Below are positions 25,215-32,636 of a DNA stretch of 32,636 nucleotides, in pieces (the first letter of the stretch is position 1; each line of letters begins with the position of its first letter). This stretch comes from Synergistaceae bacterium (GTDB lineage Bacteria; Synergistota; Synergistia; Synergistales; Synergistaceae). The DNA lies in NCBI GenBank assembly GCA_031270375.1, contig JAISXR010000039.1, positions 1 to 32,636 of the forward strand, written 5' to 3'. The notes below the pieces were generated by a model. It ran no database searches, had not been told where the DNA came from, and saw only the letters and a list, made by a program, of their open reading frames with translations. The translations under genes and the position numbers were made by a program.

Positions 25215-26950
<1,736 letters not shown>

Positions 26951-26981
26951 AACAAAAAAAGTGCTCGATGGGGGTAATCAT

Positions 26982-27710
26982 ATGAATTTCGCTTTGATCC
27001 TTGCCGGAGGATTGGGTTTGCGGATGAATCAGGCGGGGGAACCTCCGAAACAGTTTTTCAAGCTGGGCGGTAAACCTGTCTTAATACATACGCTCGACAA
27101 ATTTGAAAGACACGATGAAATCGACTCGGTGTGCGTCGTATGTCTTCCGACGTGGGAGCCTTACCTCAAGGAATTGATAGATTTTTACGGGATCAGAAAA
27201 GCCGATCGTGTGCTCTCCGGGGGCGAATCGCGGCAGATGTCCGTTTACAACGGTTTATGCGCGTTGGAACAAGATTGCGGCCCCGACGATATCGTAGTGG
27301 TGCACGACGGTGTGCGTCCTTTTATAACCCGCGAGATAATCAGCAAGAACATCGAGATCGCTCTAGCCTTCGGCAACGCGATGACAAGTATTCGCAGTAC
27401 CGATTCGCTGATTTCGTCGCCAGACGGGCAATCGGCCTGTACCGCCATGGACAGGGACAGCAGTTTTACCGTTCAAACACCGCAAACCTACCGTCTGCGA
27501 TACGGTCTCGAGCTTTATCGGAGAGCTTATGAACGCGGCATGAACAATACGATAAATTGCTGCGAGATGTTCATCGAACTCGGCGAAAAGGTTTACATCG
27601 TGAACGGGCGGAAGACGAACGTCAAATTGACCACTCCCGACGATATAGCGTATCTGAAAGCCCTTCACGCGATTTTTCAGGAAAATCCCGAGGAAGAGGA
27701 TGTTTTGTAA
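26982..27710 (+). CDS. IspD/TarI-family cytidylyltransferase
   Basis: ALILAGGLGLRMNQAGEPPKQFFKLGGKPVLIHTLDKF, VVVHDGVRPFI, FTVQTPQTYRL. ATG 26982 used instead of 26961. Confidence 0.82.
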   Translation: MNFALILAGGLGLRMNQAGEPPKQFFKLGGKPVLIHTLDKFERHDEIDSVCVVCLPTWEPYLKELIDFYGIRKADRVLSGGESRQMSVYNGLCALEQDCGPDDIVVVHDGVRPFITREIISKNIEIALAFGNAMTSIRSTDSLISSPDGQSACTAMDRDSSFTVQTPQTYRLRYGLELYRRAYERGMNNTINCCEMFIELGEKVYIVNGRKTNVKLTTPDDIAYLKALHAIFQENPEEEDVL

Positions 27711-27711
27711 T

Positions 27712-28755
27712 ATGGCGGCAGAGACGATGGACAGCGCGGTTCTGACTTCGGACATCGAATACTTGGCGAAACTGGGGCTGTGGGATTTTTTTGCCGGGAA
27801 AACAATCTTGATAACCGGCGCCACGGGAATGTTGGGGGCTTATTTGGCTTTATCCGCGATTGAAGTGAATCGAACACGCGGATGCGCGATACGCCTGCTA
27901 CTTTTGGGAAGGGACCGCAGAAAAGCCGCGTCCCTTTTCGGAGAGCGGGAGTGCGAGATGCTGATTCAGGATGTGCGCGCTCCTCTAGCGACGGACCAGG
28001 CGGTCAACTGCGTTTTTCACGCTGCCGGTCCCGTTGGGCCGAGCGTCTTCGGCAGCGATCCGGAGGAAGTGTTGTCGGTGAATATCGAGGGAACGTTTTC
28101 CCTGCTCCGGTATGCGATCAGACATGATTGTGAATGTTTCGCGCTCGCTTCGACGCACGAGGTATACGGCGCCGCTGACGGCGAGAGGGACGAAACGTCG
28201 CCTCTTTTTCCGCTGGATTCCTTGGAGCCCAGGTCGTGCTATGTGCTTGCGAAACAATCTGCCGAAAACGCCCTTTCCTGCTATCATAAAAAATACGGAT
28301 TGCGCGCCCTGTCCGCCAGACTCTCGCGCCTTTACGGCCCGTTGATGAACCTCGAAAGCGGTCTTTTCGTGTGCGATTTCATGAAAGATATCCTGAGCTG
28401 CCAACCGGTGCGGGTGCGCGGCGGAATGAATCTGCTGCGACCGTTATGCTACGTCGCCGACGCGGCGGCGGCGATGCTGTTCGCCGCGGTTTTCGGAAAG
28501 GGTGGGTTCGCGTATAATGTCCAGGGAAGAGAACTCCCCAGTATCGGCGAAATCGCGGGTAATATAGCCCGAATCGGGTGTCGGCACGCGATGTTCGATC
28601 ATCCGGAGACAAAAAACCTGCCGCCGCACGGGCATTGGCTCAATACTGACAGGTTAAAAAACCTCGGCTGGAAACAAACCGTGGGTTTGTCGGAGGGAAT
28701 GGGAAAAACTTTGTCTTTCCTGATGCGGGAAAAGAAAAAAGAGGCTGCGATATGA
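27712..28755 (+). CDS. NAD-dependent epimerase/dehydratase (extended SDR)
   Basis: TILITGATGMLGAYLA (Rossmann motif), STHEVYG, YVLAK (YxxxK), LSRLYGP. Confidence 0.82.
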   Translation: MAAETMDSAVLTSDIEYLAKLGLWDFFAGKTILITGATGMLGAYLALSAIEVNRTRGCAIRLLLLGRDRRKAASLFGERECEMLIQDVRAPLATDQAVNCVFHAAGPVGPSVFGSDPEEVLSVNIEGTFSLLRYAIRHDCECFALASTHEVYGAADGERDETSPLFPLDSLEPRSCYVLAKQSAENALSCYHKKYGLRALSARLSRLYGPLMNLESGLFVCDFMKDILSCQPVRVRGGMNLLRPLCYVADAAAAMLFAAVFGKGGFAYNVQGRELPSIGEIAGNIARIGCRHAMFDHPETKNLPPHGHWLNTDRLKNLGWKQTVGLSEGMGKTLSFLMREKKKEAAI

Positions 28756-29747
28756 TCATAACCAGAACGCCGACGCGAGTGAGCTTTTGCGGGGGAGGCA
28801 GCGATCTTCCGGCTTTTTACAAAAAGCACGGCGGGGCGGTGCTGTCCGTTGCGCTGAACCGTTATATTTACATCTCCATTCATCCGTTCTTCTATCCCGA
28901 TAAACTCATCTGCAAATACTCGAAAAACGAATTGGTCGGCAAGCCCTCTCAATTGAAACACCCGATATTCCGCGTTTTGCTCGGGCAGTTCGGCCTGAAC
29001 GGCGTCGAGATAGCGAGCACGGCCGATGTCCCCGCGGGGACGGGACTGGGTTCGTCCAGCTCTTTCACGGTTGGCCTGTTGCACACACTGTACGCTTATA
29101 CTGGCAAATACGTCTCGGCCGAGCGCCTGGCGTCCGAGGCTTGCCGGACCGAAATAGAACTGCTGGGCGAGCCCATAGGCAAACAAGATCAGTACGCGGC
29201 CGCCTTCGGCGGGCTTCGCGTGTACCGCTTCAACAGGGACGGAACCGTGAGTGTGGAACCGGTGATAATGTCGGAGGAATCGACGGAGCGCATGGAGAGA
29301 AACCTGCTTATGTTCTACACGGGCGATCTGCGTTCCGCGTCCGAAATATTGAAAGCGCAGGGCGACAATATCGCGCGCGACGCTGAGAAAGAAAAAATTC
29401 AAAAAGCCATCGGCGATTTGACCGAAGAACTTCACAAAGAGCTGACGAACGACAATATCGACGCCCTGGGGCCTCTGATGAACGCCGGTTGGGAATACAA
29501 ACGCCGGATGGCGCACGGGATCACGAACACGACTATCGACGACGCTTACGAAGAAGCCATGAAAGCCGGGGCCCTCGGGGGAAAACTGCTGGGAGCGGGC
29601 GGCGGCGGTTTTTTGATTTTCTACGTGCCTGAACACCGGCACAACGCCGTGAAAAATGCCCTGGCGCGTCTTCGGTACATGGAATTCGGCTTCAGCCGCA
29701 ACGGCTCCACGATAATATATGTCGGCGAAAAGCCGAAGGGCATTTGA
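28752..29747 (+). CDS. hddA: GHMP kinase, D-glycero-D-manno-heptose-7-phosphate kinase type
   Basis: RTPTRVSFCGGGSDLPAFYKKHGGAVLSVALNRYIYI, PAGTGLGSSSSFTVGLLHTL, GKLLGAGGGGFLIFYVP. Confidence 0.82.
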   Translation: MIITRTPTRVSFCGGGSDLPAFYKKHGGAVLSVALNRYIYISIHPFFYPDKLICKYSKNELVGKPSQLKHPIFRVLLGQFGLNGVEIASTADVPAGTGLGSSSSFTVGLLHTLYAYTGKYVSAERLASEACRTEIELLGEPIGKQDQYAAAFGGLRVYRFNRDGTVSVEPVIMSEESTERMERNLLMFYTGDLRSASEILKAQGDNIARDAEKEKIQKAIGDLTEELHKELTNDNIDALGPLMNAGWEYKRRMAHGITNTTIDDAYEEAMKAGALGGKLLGAGGGGFLIFYVPEHRHNAVKNALARLRYMEFGFSRNGSTIIYVGEKPKGI

Positions 29748-29783
29748 GGCTGGCGCGATGAGTATCTCGACGGAGAGAGCGAT

Positions 29784-31076
29784 ATGAGAGCCGCGATATT
29801 GGCCGGCGGGCGGGGGACGCGCATGGGCGGAATGTTTCACGATCTGCCCAAGCCCATGATCCCGGTTGCGGGCAAACCGATGCTGCGGCATCAAGTGGAG
29901 TCGCTGGTCAGTCAGGGAATAAGGCGGATAACCCTGATCATTGGTTACAGAGAGAGCCTCATACGTTCGTATTTCAGAGACGGTAAAACGTTTGGCGCGG
30001 AGATCAATTACATCACCGAGGATGTACCCCTTGGCACCGGCGGGGCCCTCTCGCTTCTTCCGCGGGGAAAAACACTGATATTGATGGGTGATGTTTACGT
30101 GGATTTGGATTTCGGCATGTTCATCCGGTTTCATGACGAACACAACGCCGGCGTCAGCCTGTTCGTCCATCCCAACAGCCACCCGCGCGACAGCGACGCG
30201 GTGGTGACCGACGCCCGGGCGCGGGTGACGGCATGGAAGTCCAAACATGACGAACGAAAAGAATACCTGCGCAATCTGGCAAACGCCGGCATATATATCT
30301 TCAGCGAATCAGCGCTCCCTGCGGGAGAGGCGAAAAAACGCGACCTCGACCGGGACGTGATCGCGCCGCTAGTACCTTCGGGCGTCGTTTTCGCCTACCG
30401 CTCCCCTGAATACGCGCATGACATGGGGACGCCAGAGCGCCTTGAGTCCGTGGAGAGAGATATAAAAAACGGCGTTCCCGCCGCGCGCAATTTGAAAAAA
30501 AAGCAACGGGCCGTGTTTTTGGACAGGGACGGGACGATAAATGCCGAGGACGGTTTTATCAGTGATCCGGAGCAAATACTGTTATTGCCCGGCGCCGCGA
30601 AAGCGATAGCCACGCTGAACGCATCGCGTCTGCTCGCGATATGCGTCACCAATCAGCCGGTCGTGGCGCGCGGCGAGGTATCGTTGGAGAGACTGGAAGC
30701 CATCCACGCGCGGCTGGACACTCTGTTGGGCAGCGAGGGCGCGTATCTGGACGATTTGCTGTTCTGCCCGCATCACCCAGACAGGGGCTTCGAGGGTGAG
30801 ATAGCGGAGTACAAGAAAGACTGCGACTGCCGCAAGCCGAAACCGGGGATGTTGCTGAGCGCTGCTGAGCGCTACAACATAGACCTGAACCGCTCGTACA
30901 TGATAGGCGACCGGACGTCGGATATCGCCGCCGGTCAGAGCGCCGGCACCAAAGCAATTGGTGTCCTGACGGGTGCCGCCCTTGCGGACGGCAAATGCGA
31001 GGCCAAACCGGATATGACGTTCGACTGCTTGCGAGACGCCGTAGATTGGATAATGGCTGAGGAGACGACGGTATAG
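29784..31076 (+). CDS. Bifunctional sugar nucleotidyltransferase (HddC-like) / HAD-IIIA heptose bisphosphate phosphatase (GmhB-like) fusion
   Basis: N-terminus MRAAILAGGRGTRMGGMFHDLPKPMIPVAGKPML; C-terminus AVFLDRDGTINAEDGFISDPEQILLLPGAAKAI...DCDCRKPKPGMLL...YMIGDRTSDIAAGQSAG. Single continuous frame. Confidence 0.85.
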   Translation: MRAAILAGGRGTRMGGMFHDLPKPMIPVAGKPMLRHQVESLVSQGIRRITLIIGYRESLIRSYFRDGKTFGAEINYITEDVPLGTGGALSLLPRGKTLILMGDVYVDLDFGMFIRFHDEHNAGVSLFVHPNSHPRDSDAVVTDARARVTAWKSKHDERKEYLRNLANAGIYIFSESALPAGEAKKRDLDRDVIAPLVPSGVVFAYRSPEYAHDMGTPERLESVERDIKNGVPAARNLKKKQRAVFLDRDGTINAEDGFISDPEQILLLPGAAKAIATLNASRLLAICVTNQPVVARGEVSLERLEAIHARLDTLLGSEGAYLDDLLFCPHHPDRGFEGEIAEYKKDCDCRKPKPGMLLSAAERYNIDLNRSYMIGDRTSDIAAGQSAGTKAIGVLTGAALADGKCEAKPDMTFDCLRDAVDWIMAEETTV

Positions 31077-31114
31077 CGCAACACCGCACCTTGAGAACTA
31101 ATTGAACAAACGAT

Positions 31115-31122
31115 GATATAAT
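31115..31122 (+). promoter_or_regulatory. Extended -10 promoter (TGATATAAT core) for the small ORF at 31196
   Basis: gatgaTATAATaa at 31112-31124. The same gatgatataataa string occurs in the opposing antisense promoter. Confidence 0.55.
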
Positions 31123-31173
31123 AAGCGTGATGGGGCCTTCCGGCAAAGCAGGAGCCGGTGAGTGCGGGTCTTG

Positions 31174-31188
31174 ACCTCTGAGGGGGGT
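31174..31188 (+). promoter_or_regulatory. Possible SD-sequestering hairpin in the leader of the small ORF
   Basis: ACCTCT (31174-31179) can pair with GGGGGT (31183-31188), including G-U pairs, across a 3-nt loop, covering the SD gaggggggtg. Confidence 0.35.
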
Positions 31189-31195
31189 GACGCGG

Positions 31196-31348
31196 ATGTC
31201 GAAAGACGGAAACGGCCTTCCCGGCAAAGAAAAAGAGGAGAAAGGCACCCTCTCCAAGGTGATAAGCCTTGCTCCTCTTCTTGCTGTGATCCTCCAGTTT
31301 CTTGAGTTGATACTGTCGATACTCAAGATATTCGGAGTGATCCGGTAA
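31196..31348 (+). CDS. Small hydrophobic protein (50 aa), candidate type I toxin peptide
   Basis: MSKDGNGLPGKEKEEKGTLSKVISLAPLLAVILQFLELILSILKIFGVIR* from ATG 31196 with strong SD gaggggggtg. Charged N-terminus, hydrophobic C-terminal helix. Absent from the ORF track, whose shortest listed protein is 60 aa. Confidence 0.6.
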   Translation: MSKDGNGLPGKEKEEKGTLSKVISLAPLLAVILQFLELILSILKIFGVIR

Positions 31349-31404
31349 ACCGCCGAGAGGCTGGTTCCTTGGGCCGCCCTACCATCGGGGGCGGTTCTTA
31401 CATT
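31200..31404 (-). ncRNA. Hypothetical antisense RNA (antitoxin) overlapping the 3' end of the small ORF; its 3' end is a guess
   Basis: Inferred only from the minus-strand promoter. The start is estimated about 7 nt past the -10, and the other boundary is unknown. Confidence 0.35.
31348..31396 (+). terminator. Terminator-like hairpin abutting the small ORF, with two alternative 5' arms
   Basis: AACCGCC (31348-31354) or CCGCCC (31374-31379) can pair with the shared 3' arm region (GGGCGG 31389-31394 / GGCGGTT 31390-31396). Confidence 0.55.
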
Positions 31405-31410
31405 GATATT

Positions 31411-31439
31411 ATTATATCATCCCTCAAACGGTTTTTCAA
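31411..31439 (-). promoter_or_regulatory. Near-consensus minus-strand promoter TTGAAA-N17-TATAAT directed into the 3' end of the small ORF
   Basis: Reverse complement of 31411-31440 is TTTGAAAAACCGTTTGAGGGATGATATAAT. The -35 has 5/6 matches, the spacer is exactly 17, the -10 is perfect, with an extended TGn. Confidence 0.65.
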
Positions 31440-31504
31440 AATTGGATCGCGCTTAAATTTTCGGTCAGGCACGGAAGTAACAACACTAATAGGGAGACGA
31501 TGAT

Positions 31505-32636
31505 ATGAGGCTCGTTATTTTGGGTGGGGGGCTGGCCGGCATTTCGCTGGCTTATTTTTTGCAAAACGAACCGGATATAACCACGGTGGATATAATCGAA
31601 AAAGAGAGCCGGGTTGGCGGGCTGTGCCGCAGTTTTATCCACGACGGGCGTTTCGTAGATATCGGCCCTCATATATTTTTTTCGAAGGACGGTGAAACAC
31701 TGTCGTTCATGTTGGATATCCTGGGAGATAACGTGAACAGCCTGCGCCGTTCGAACAGGATCATTCACAAGGACCGTTTCGTGCAGTATCCGTTTGAAAA
31801 TGACCTGTCGCGCCTGCCGCGCGAGGATTGCGAAAGATGCCTCAAGGAATTTCTCGATAATCCTTACCGCGATTACGAGGCGCGCAACATGCTGCAATTT
31901 TTCCTCAAAACATTCGGACAGGGCATAACCGACCTTTATCTGCGGCCTTATAACGAAAAAATCTGGAAATTCGACCCCTCTTTCATGGACACCCAGATGG
32001 TCGAGCGCATTCCCCGCCCTCCCGACGAGGATATCATGCGAAGCGCGGCGGGAGAGACGGTCGACGGCTATACTCACCAGCTATATTTTTCTTATCCCAA
32101 AGCCGGGGGTACCGCCGCTTTCATCGACGCGTTCGCCGGCAGGCTGAACGAAAAAGTCAAGATTCATACTTCGCGCGCCGCAACGTCCGTGCGAAAAGAA
32201 AACGCCGTCTGGCGCGTGGAGGCCGGAGGCGCGGTTTTCGAGGGAGACATACTCGTCTCGTGTATCCCCGTAAATATCCTTGCCGGCATATACGAGGGCA
32301 TCGGCCAGGATGTCGCGCGCCGCGCCGAAGATTTGAGATACAACAACATCATGATAGCGGTAGCCACAGTGTCTAAAGACCGCGCCGGAGACAATTTCGC
32401 TTTCATGACAGCCGACAGAGGCGTCATTTTCCACCGTGTGAGCAAATTGGATTTTTTGGGTGAAGAGTACGCCCGCCCCGGAACGGCGACCTACATGATG
32501 GAATACACATACCGCGGCGGCGACCCGCGCGCTGGCCTGAGCGACGGCGCGCTGACGGAAGAATTTCGCGGCGGCCTGAAACGCATCGGCTTCGTGGAGA
32601 ACGACGGGGAAATACTGTCGTTCACCGTAAAAAAAT
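31505..32636 (+). CDS. FAD/NAD(P)-dependent oxidoreductase, protoporphyrinogen oxidase / UDP-galactopyranose mutase-like, 3' truncated by the window edge
   Basis: ATG 31505: MRLVILGGGLAGISLAYFLQNEPDITTVDIIEKESRVGGLCRSFIHDGRFVDIGPHIFF..., open to the window end. Not in the ORF track because no stop is reached. Confidence 0.75.
   Translation, partial: MRLVILGGGLAGISLAYFLQNEPDITTVDIIEKESRVGGLCRSFIHDGRFVDIGPHIFFSKDGETLSFMLDILGDNVNSLRRSNRIIHKDRFVQYPFENDLSRLPREDCERCLKEFLDNPYRDYEARNMLQFFLKTFGQGITDLYLRPYNEKIWKFDPSFMDTQMVERIPRPPDEDIMRSAAGETVDGYTHQLYFSYPKAGGTAAFIDAFAGRLNEKVKIHTSRAATSVRKENAVWRVEAGGAVFEGDILVSCIPVNILAGIYEGIGQDVARRAEDLRYNNIMIAVATVSKDRAGDNFAFMTADRGVIFHRVSKLDFLGEEYARPGTATYMMEYTYRGGDPRAGLSDGALTEEFRGGLKRIGFVENDGEILSFTVKK

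Follow-up and report, generated by a model that had tools for sequence, protein, structure and literature searches.

Results

A candidate type I toxin-antitoxin family in Synergistaceae

In a 32,636-nt stretch of DNA from a Synergistaceae bacterium (hereafter, the window), a short element encoding a 50-amino-acid hydrophobic peptide and an opposing antisense RNA very probably represents a new family of type I toxin-antitoxin modules. This reading had been put forward in a first-pass annotation made without database searches, and it is supported by a multi-copy family of relatives, compensatory changes in the hairpins, an antisense terminator located inside the open reading frame (ORF), and a candidate antisense promoter in all scorable copies (47/47). 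The features characteristic of type I systems that were found are a hydrophobic peptide of fewer than 60 aa with translation signals, an antisense gene recognizable as a set of sequence features, and a multi-copy distribution. A recurrent, mobile or multi-copy distribution is usual for type I systems, but it is not strictly defining. The features of the window copy are as follows.

31114..31122, plus strand: extended -10 of the peptide mRNA (TGATATAAT), from the window sequence
31140..31158, plus strand: leader hairpin of the peptide mRNA, CCGGC...GCCGG; position the same in relatives, with paired changes
31174..31190, plus strand: Shine-Dalgarno (SD) region within a small hairpin (CCTCTGAGGGGGGTGA); most copies show base pairing across the SD itself
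31196..31348, plus strand: peptide ORF, putative toxin (VISLAPLLAVILQFLELIL); 50 aa, polar N-terminal part and one hydrophobic helix
31371..31397, plus strand: sense terminator hairpin; stem 31371-31380 / 31388-31397, mutated loop reading CCGATGG in the window
31411..31439, minus strand: antisense promoter of the outer type, TTGAAA-N17-TATAAT with TG extension; TTGAAA 31439-31434, TATAAT 31416-31411
31225..31404, minus strand: predicted antisense RNA, about 180 nt in the window copy, from a covariance model match and fold
31288..31342, minus strand: antisense RNA, first hairpin (CTTGAG...CTCAAG), whose outer stem includes GATC and CTCC/GGAG
31225..31279, minus strand: antisense Rho-independent terminator; stem 31279-31266 / 31246-31233, T-tract 31236-31225

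On the plus strand, the coding part of the ORF spans 31196-31345 and is followed by TAA at 31346-31348, as read from the window sequence. The encoded peptide is identical to the one first written down for this locus, and its 19-residue Kyte-Doolittle maximum is 2.39. The extended -10, which had been placed about 75 nt upstream, lies 73 nt 5' of the ATG, and the SD that had been reported is present as GGGGGGTGA immediately 5' of the start codon. A hairpin does exist 3' of the stop codon, as had been proposed, but its stem begins about 22 nt beyond the stop and not at the stop itself. When the window leader was folded alone, the minimum-energy fold differed from the leader hairpin at 31140..31158.

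On the minus strand, the TTGAAA-N17-TATAAT promoter pointing back at the ORF was located where it had been claimed to be. With 11 of 12 bases fitting the consensus, no sigma70-like match within 2.6 kb is stronger; three sites of this strength occur in the 32.6 kb (both strands), compared to 0.3 in shuffled sequence. The antisense terminator falls in the codons for KEKEE and LAPLL, and the first antisense hairpin doubles as the codons for the VILQ...LELIL...GVI part of the peptide. A covariance model of the antisense RNA matched the window at 31391-31225 (minus strand) with 125 bits and an E-value of 1.7e-28, the window copy being part of the training set, and the fold of the RNA had a z-score of -3.96; the start at 31404 was placed from the position of the promoter. 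The overlap with the 3' end of the ORF, which the first-pass annotation had suggested, is thus predicted as well; however, the antisense RNA would not be confined to the 3' end and would reach back through most of the ORF, to about codon 11.

The element is a dispersed, multi-copy family

A protein search of 201 relatives revealed four copies in the genome of the window and further copies in many related genomes, some of them in tandem, with peptide matches in other genomes reaching an E-value of 1.3e-13. Two other copies in the window's genome share 73-74% DNA similarity with the window copy over the leader and ORF. A profile built from 24 peptides matched 23 of 188 Synergistota genomes (E <= 0.01). 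The covariance-model search of Synergistota genomes, which had been proposed as a check on the locus, was also positive: the antisense RNA model matched 25 of the 188 genomes (E <= 0.1), with up to eight matches per genome and E-values down to 3e-33 outside the window's genome. The outer edge of this distribution is soft, because the best E-values in four genomes (G040, G168, G142 and G051) are only 0.002-0.015. The named relatives, which came from a distant-homology scan with a closer subset of the alignment, are all Synergistaceae represented by metagenome-assembled genomes (MAGs) or by a single-cell-type assembly, and their isolate codes suggest that the hosts are termites and cockroaches.

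Two or three tandem copies, with spacings from a few hundred nt up to roughly 2 kb, were observed at five loci (L038 on G031:C24, L041 on G028:C115, L126 on G038:C150, L136 and L137). For five copies (L002, L011, L047, L051 and L139), the contig ends at most a few hundred nt away, as though the repeats had interrupted the MAG assemblies; the real number of copies is probably greater. Decayed copies, in which the 3' part or the leader is lost or the frame is broken, were found as well (L014, L129, L131, L139 and, in L038, the third copy). Such decay would be expected of dispensable modules, but also of a non-toxic repeat.

Anatomy is shared across copies

The anatomy was read from about 48 copies, and their comparison shows, at the level of sequence, the gene, both promoters, both terminators, and the hairpins along with their conservation. 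The common layout consists of a -10, a leader, a short one-helix ORF and a sense terminator, with the antisense promoter and a two-hairpin RNA on the opposite strand. In most of the complete copies the -10 hexamer is found 70-90 nt 5' of the start codon, and the leader is about 70-80 nt long in most copies. The arms of the leader hairpin co-vary among copies (CCGGC/GCCGG, CCAGC/GCTGG, TTCGAG/CTCGAA and CAGGC/GCCTG), and most copies have a second leader hairpin over the SD (CCCTC/GAGGG, CCCC/GGGG or CTCCC/GGGAG). The SD and the start codon are kept in the family, and the sense terminator takes the form GCCGCCCTACCGTCAAGGGCGGC followed by T.

In most copies the antisense promoter reads TTGACG-N17-TACAAT and lies right past the stop codon; in most relatives its -35 (TTGACGG) falls in the sense terminator loop. 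The first antisense hairpin of the family is CTTGAG/CTCAAG, lengthened by CTCC/GGAG and TTGATT/AATCAA; the second (AGAGGAGCAAGGC...GCCTTGCTCCTCTTTTTT) is a textbook Rho-independent terminator that is built from the codons for KKEEQ and LAPLL. Because the terminator is formed by these codons, the antisense RNA in inner-promoter copies is predicted to be about 125 nt long and to face the part of the ORF between about codon 11 and the stop. In the aligned copies the position of the terminator is 3' of about codon 9, so that the SD would fall outside the predicted RNA.

Evidence for selection on the predicted antisense RNA and for promoter turnover

Across 27 aligned copies, 64 cells of the antisense stems were changed on both sides, compared to 23.0 (sd 5.2) after shuffling, and 84.8% of cells were paired versus 38-50% when the partner was slid. 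The helix of the antisense terminator was 94.9% paired, with double changes at 7 of 13 pairs, and a U-turn-like YUNR motif is present in its loop in 22 of the 27 copies. A hairpin of at least threshold strength lies within the ORF in 47 of 48 copies, compared to 30% of shuffles, and is followed by a T-rich tail in 38 of 48. Furthermore, an antisense promoter scoring at least 10 points was found in 29 of 48 copies versus 0.4% in shuffles.

The candidate antisense promoter occupies one of two positions. An inner promoter is found within the sense terminator in 38 of 47 copies, its -10 being 6-21 nt past the stop. The nine copies that lack it, including the window copy, all have an extended -10 immediately after the sense terminator, at a distance of 51-73 nt from the stop. 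At this outer position the inner-promoter copies score low compared to the nine (Mann-Whitney p = 2e-6), a value that serves only as a guide because the score and cut-off were set post hoc and relatedness was not corrected for; some of the nine outer promoters have modest scores, and seven of the nine are related order-level copies. In the window copy the inner -35 reads CCGATGG and the inner -10 is gone; because these common antisense -35 and -10 elements are lost there, control of this copy would rest on the outer promoter. This turnover, taken as a natural case, suggests that antisense transcription is needed.

Evidence that the ORF is maintained as a membrane peptide

The peptides of the family are 40-58 aa long and combine a single membrane helix with an N-terminal part that is polar and often basic. 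A hydrophobic helix was present in 23 of 23 representative peptides, with 19-residue Kyte-Doolittle maxima of 1.3-2.8. The N-terminal part of the main group is near neutral or acidic, unlike that of many known type I toxins. Frame 0 had the lowest pN/pS of the six frames (0.605 in the main group and 0.54 in the second group), only modestly under the other frames because the RNA stems constrain the DNA too. Codon position 2 was best conserved (entropy of 0.68 versus 0.98 and 1.11 at the other positions), the pattern that a stretch of hydrophobic codons should produce. In two copies (L043 and L049), the 5' arm of the stem is read in a shifted frame, KKEEQ becoming KQRSK or KNRGV, and the frame is regained before the hydrophobic part; in these copies the structure and the hydrophobic C-terminal part are preserved, while the N-terminal residues are not. 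In more distant copies, which come from order-level relatives and from a basic group within the family, sequence similarity is low, yet these copies retain the promoter, leader, basic N-terminal part, single membrane helix and antisense terminator.

Alternative explanations

A non-toxic small membrane protein under the same antisense RNA control, such as a membrane enzyme modulator or a stress peptide, is the most serious competitor of the type I reading, and it is considered unlikely. The anatomy fixes the regulation and says nothing about the effect of the peptide, and ordinary housekeeping genes adjoin copies in addition to integrases, both of which such a protein would accommodate. However, high copy number, tandem and decayed copies, presence or absence in close relatives, and divergence under a fixed layout form the usual pattern of type I systems and are less typical of a cellular function that is conserved.

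It is less probable still that the RNA is the functional product, either as a dispersed structured non-coding element or as a trans-acting sRNA, with the ORF a by-product of its hairpins. Much of the codon sequence is indeed dictated by the two antisense hairpins, and synonymous sites are constrained; nevertheless, the SD and start codon are kept, the frame is regained after the local frameshifts, and the hydrophobic C-terminal part is retained in relatives with barely alignable DNA. A pure non-coding RNA was rejected because of the conservation of codon position 2 and the frame restoration. Chance, meaning that a short ORF and consensus-like promoter sequences arose at random between two genes, has a negligible probability: although small ORFs for hydrophobic peptides occur frequently, as do sites resembling promoters, the family already refutes it through the peptide and RNA matches in other genomes (E-values of 1.3e-13 and 3e-33) and the compensatory changes.

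Comparison with known type I systems

The first-pass annotation had described the locus as being of an unrecognized sequence type, and this description held in all four databases. The window peptide had no match in Pfam (E <= 10) or NCBIfam, 24 family members searched against Pfam gave chance matches only, the family had no match in the PDB, and Rfam at the gathering score gave no hit in the window, with only chance matches below threshold at the locus. These Pfam and NCBIfam searches revealed no sequence relation to TxpA/BsrG-type toxins.

In the TxpA/RatA and BsrG/SR4 modules of Bacillus subtilis, the RNAs overlap by about 75 and 120 nt at their 3' ends and RatA stays outside the coding region (PMC4147584). 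The TxpA/RatA duplex is destroyed by RNase III, cleavage and not SD masking being the documented route, and the BsrG mRNA forms a larger SD hairpin upon pairing with SR4 (PMC4147584). The present family resembles both in having an mRNA for a small hydrophobic peptide, a cis-encoded antisense RNA over its 3' part and a free SD; it differs in that the predicted antisense RNA crosses most of the ORF and has its terminator inside it. In the AapA/IsoA systems of Helicobacter pylori, an antisense RNA of 80 nt lies opposite a small ORF, several copies occur per chromosome, and structures in the toxin mRNA sequester the SD (PMC6733600, PMC8322730). The antisense position, multiple copies and SD-sequestering structures are shared with the present family; however, IsoA3 masks the aapA3 SD from a promoter within the ORF (PMC6733600), whereas here the antisense promoter lies past the stop and the predicted RNA leaves the SD uncovered, and AapA3 has 30 aa.

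The par locus of pAD1 (Fst/RNAII) is similar in its convergent toxin mRNA and antisense RNA, the terminator region used by both, and its small membrane peptide (PMC4147584, PMC7472228); the pAD1 RNAs have the terminator and direct repeats in common, and their overlap does not extend into coding sequence (PMC4147584). Dissimilar from Fst/Ldr, the present peptide lacks the PXXXGC-type motif (PMC8309996), reads LAPLLAVIL and has no Pfam match. A 2025 paper presents MsoT1/MsoA1 of Microcystis as the first candidate type I system to be reported beyond Proteobacteria, Firmicutes and Tenericutes, the only phyla that it lists apart from its own cyanobacterial candidate (PMC12390103). By description the present family is like MsoT1/MsoA1 in being a type I candidate from a phylum with none described before (PMC12390103); the cyanobacterial system was tested in the laboratory, whereas the present family rests on comparative support. 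Among the open-licence literature, no paper on type I systems in Synergistetes/Synergistota was found.

Proposed mechanism and significance

For transcription, RNA pairing, RNase III cleavage and toxicity, we infer the following course. The plus strand would give rise to a short mRNA for a membrane peptide of 40-58 aa, with a leader folded over the SD that would keep translation low. On the opposite strand, a promoter located at the mRNA terminator or slightly past it would drive an antisense RNA of about 125-180 nt. This RNA would be perfectly complementary to the mRNA over a stretch that begins at about codon 11 and continues through the stop and further. Pairing probably begins at the hairpin loops (YUNR in the antisense terminator loop), and the duplex, because it would leave the SD uncovered, is most likely removed by RNase III after the example of TxpA/RatA; alternatively, pairing may alter SD accessibility as in BsrG/SR4. 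When the antisense RNA is missing, the peptide would insert into the membrane and growth would stop.

Type I modules are hard to detect by sequence. If the type I reading is true, these systems extend to Synergistota, apparently for the first time, and the dozens of aligned copies allow the antisense promoter, terminator and pairing loops to be read from evolution alone. The element is probably the first type I family of this phylum, with a nested antitoxin whose terminator arms encode KKEEQ in the polar N-terminal part and LAPLL at the start of the helix, an antisense -35 in the loop of the toxin terminator, and replacement of a decayed promoter about 45 nt further out. The family also offers a case in which the amino acid sequence of a small peptide is dictated in part by a predicted antisense RNA encoded opposite to it.

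Genomic surroundings

Some copies (L037 and others) are flanked by phage integrases or prophage tail genes, and others by housekeeping genes. The element was rejected as a phage or plasmid gene, since tblastn of phage and plasmid records gave no match despite some integrase neighbours; viral contigs searched for the element likewise gave no match. In one relative (G002), the orthologous upstream gene is present at 82% identity and the element is absent after it; because the next gene also differs, this represents presence or absence and not a precise insertion.

In the window, the element lies next to a fused nucleotidyltransferase/HAD phosphatase gene and a flavin amine-oxidoreductase-like gene, as identified by Pfam. 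A palindrome at 31404-31419 (TGATATTATTATATCA) gives an extended -10-like sequence on each strand; the one on the plus strand could be used by the gene that follows at 31505. Sugar-nucleotide genes (nucleotidyltransferases and kinase-like, epimerase-like and mutase-like proteins) are clustered at 25227-32635, where the Pfam check covered only the two genes flanking the element, and this cluster is probably a surface glycan locus.
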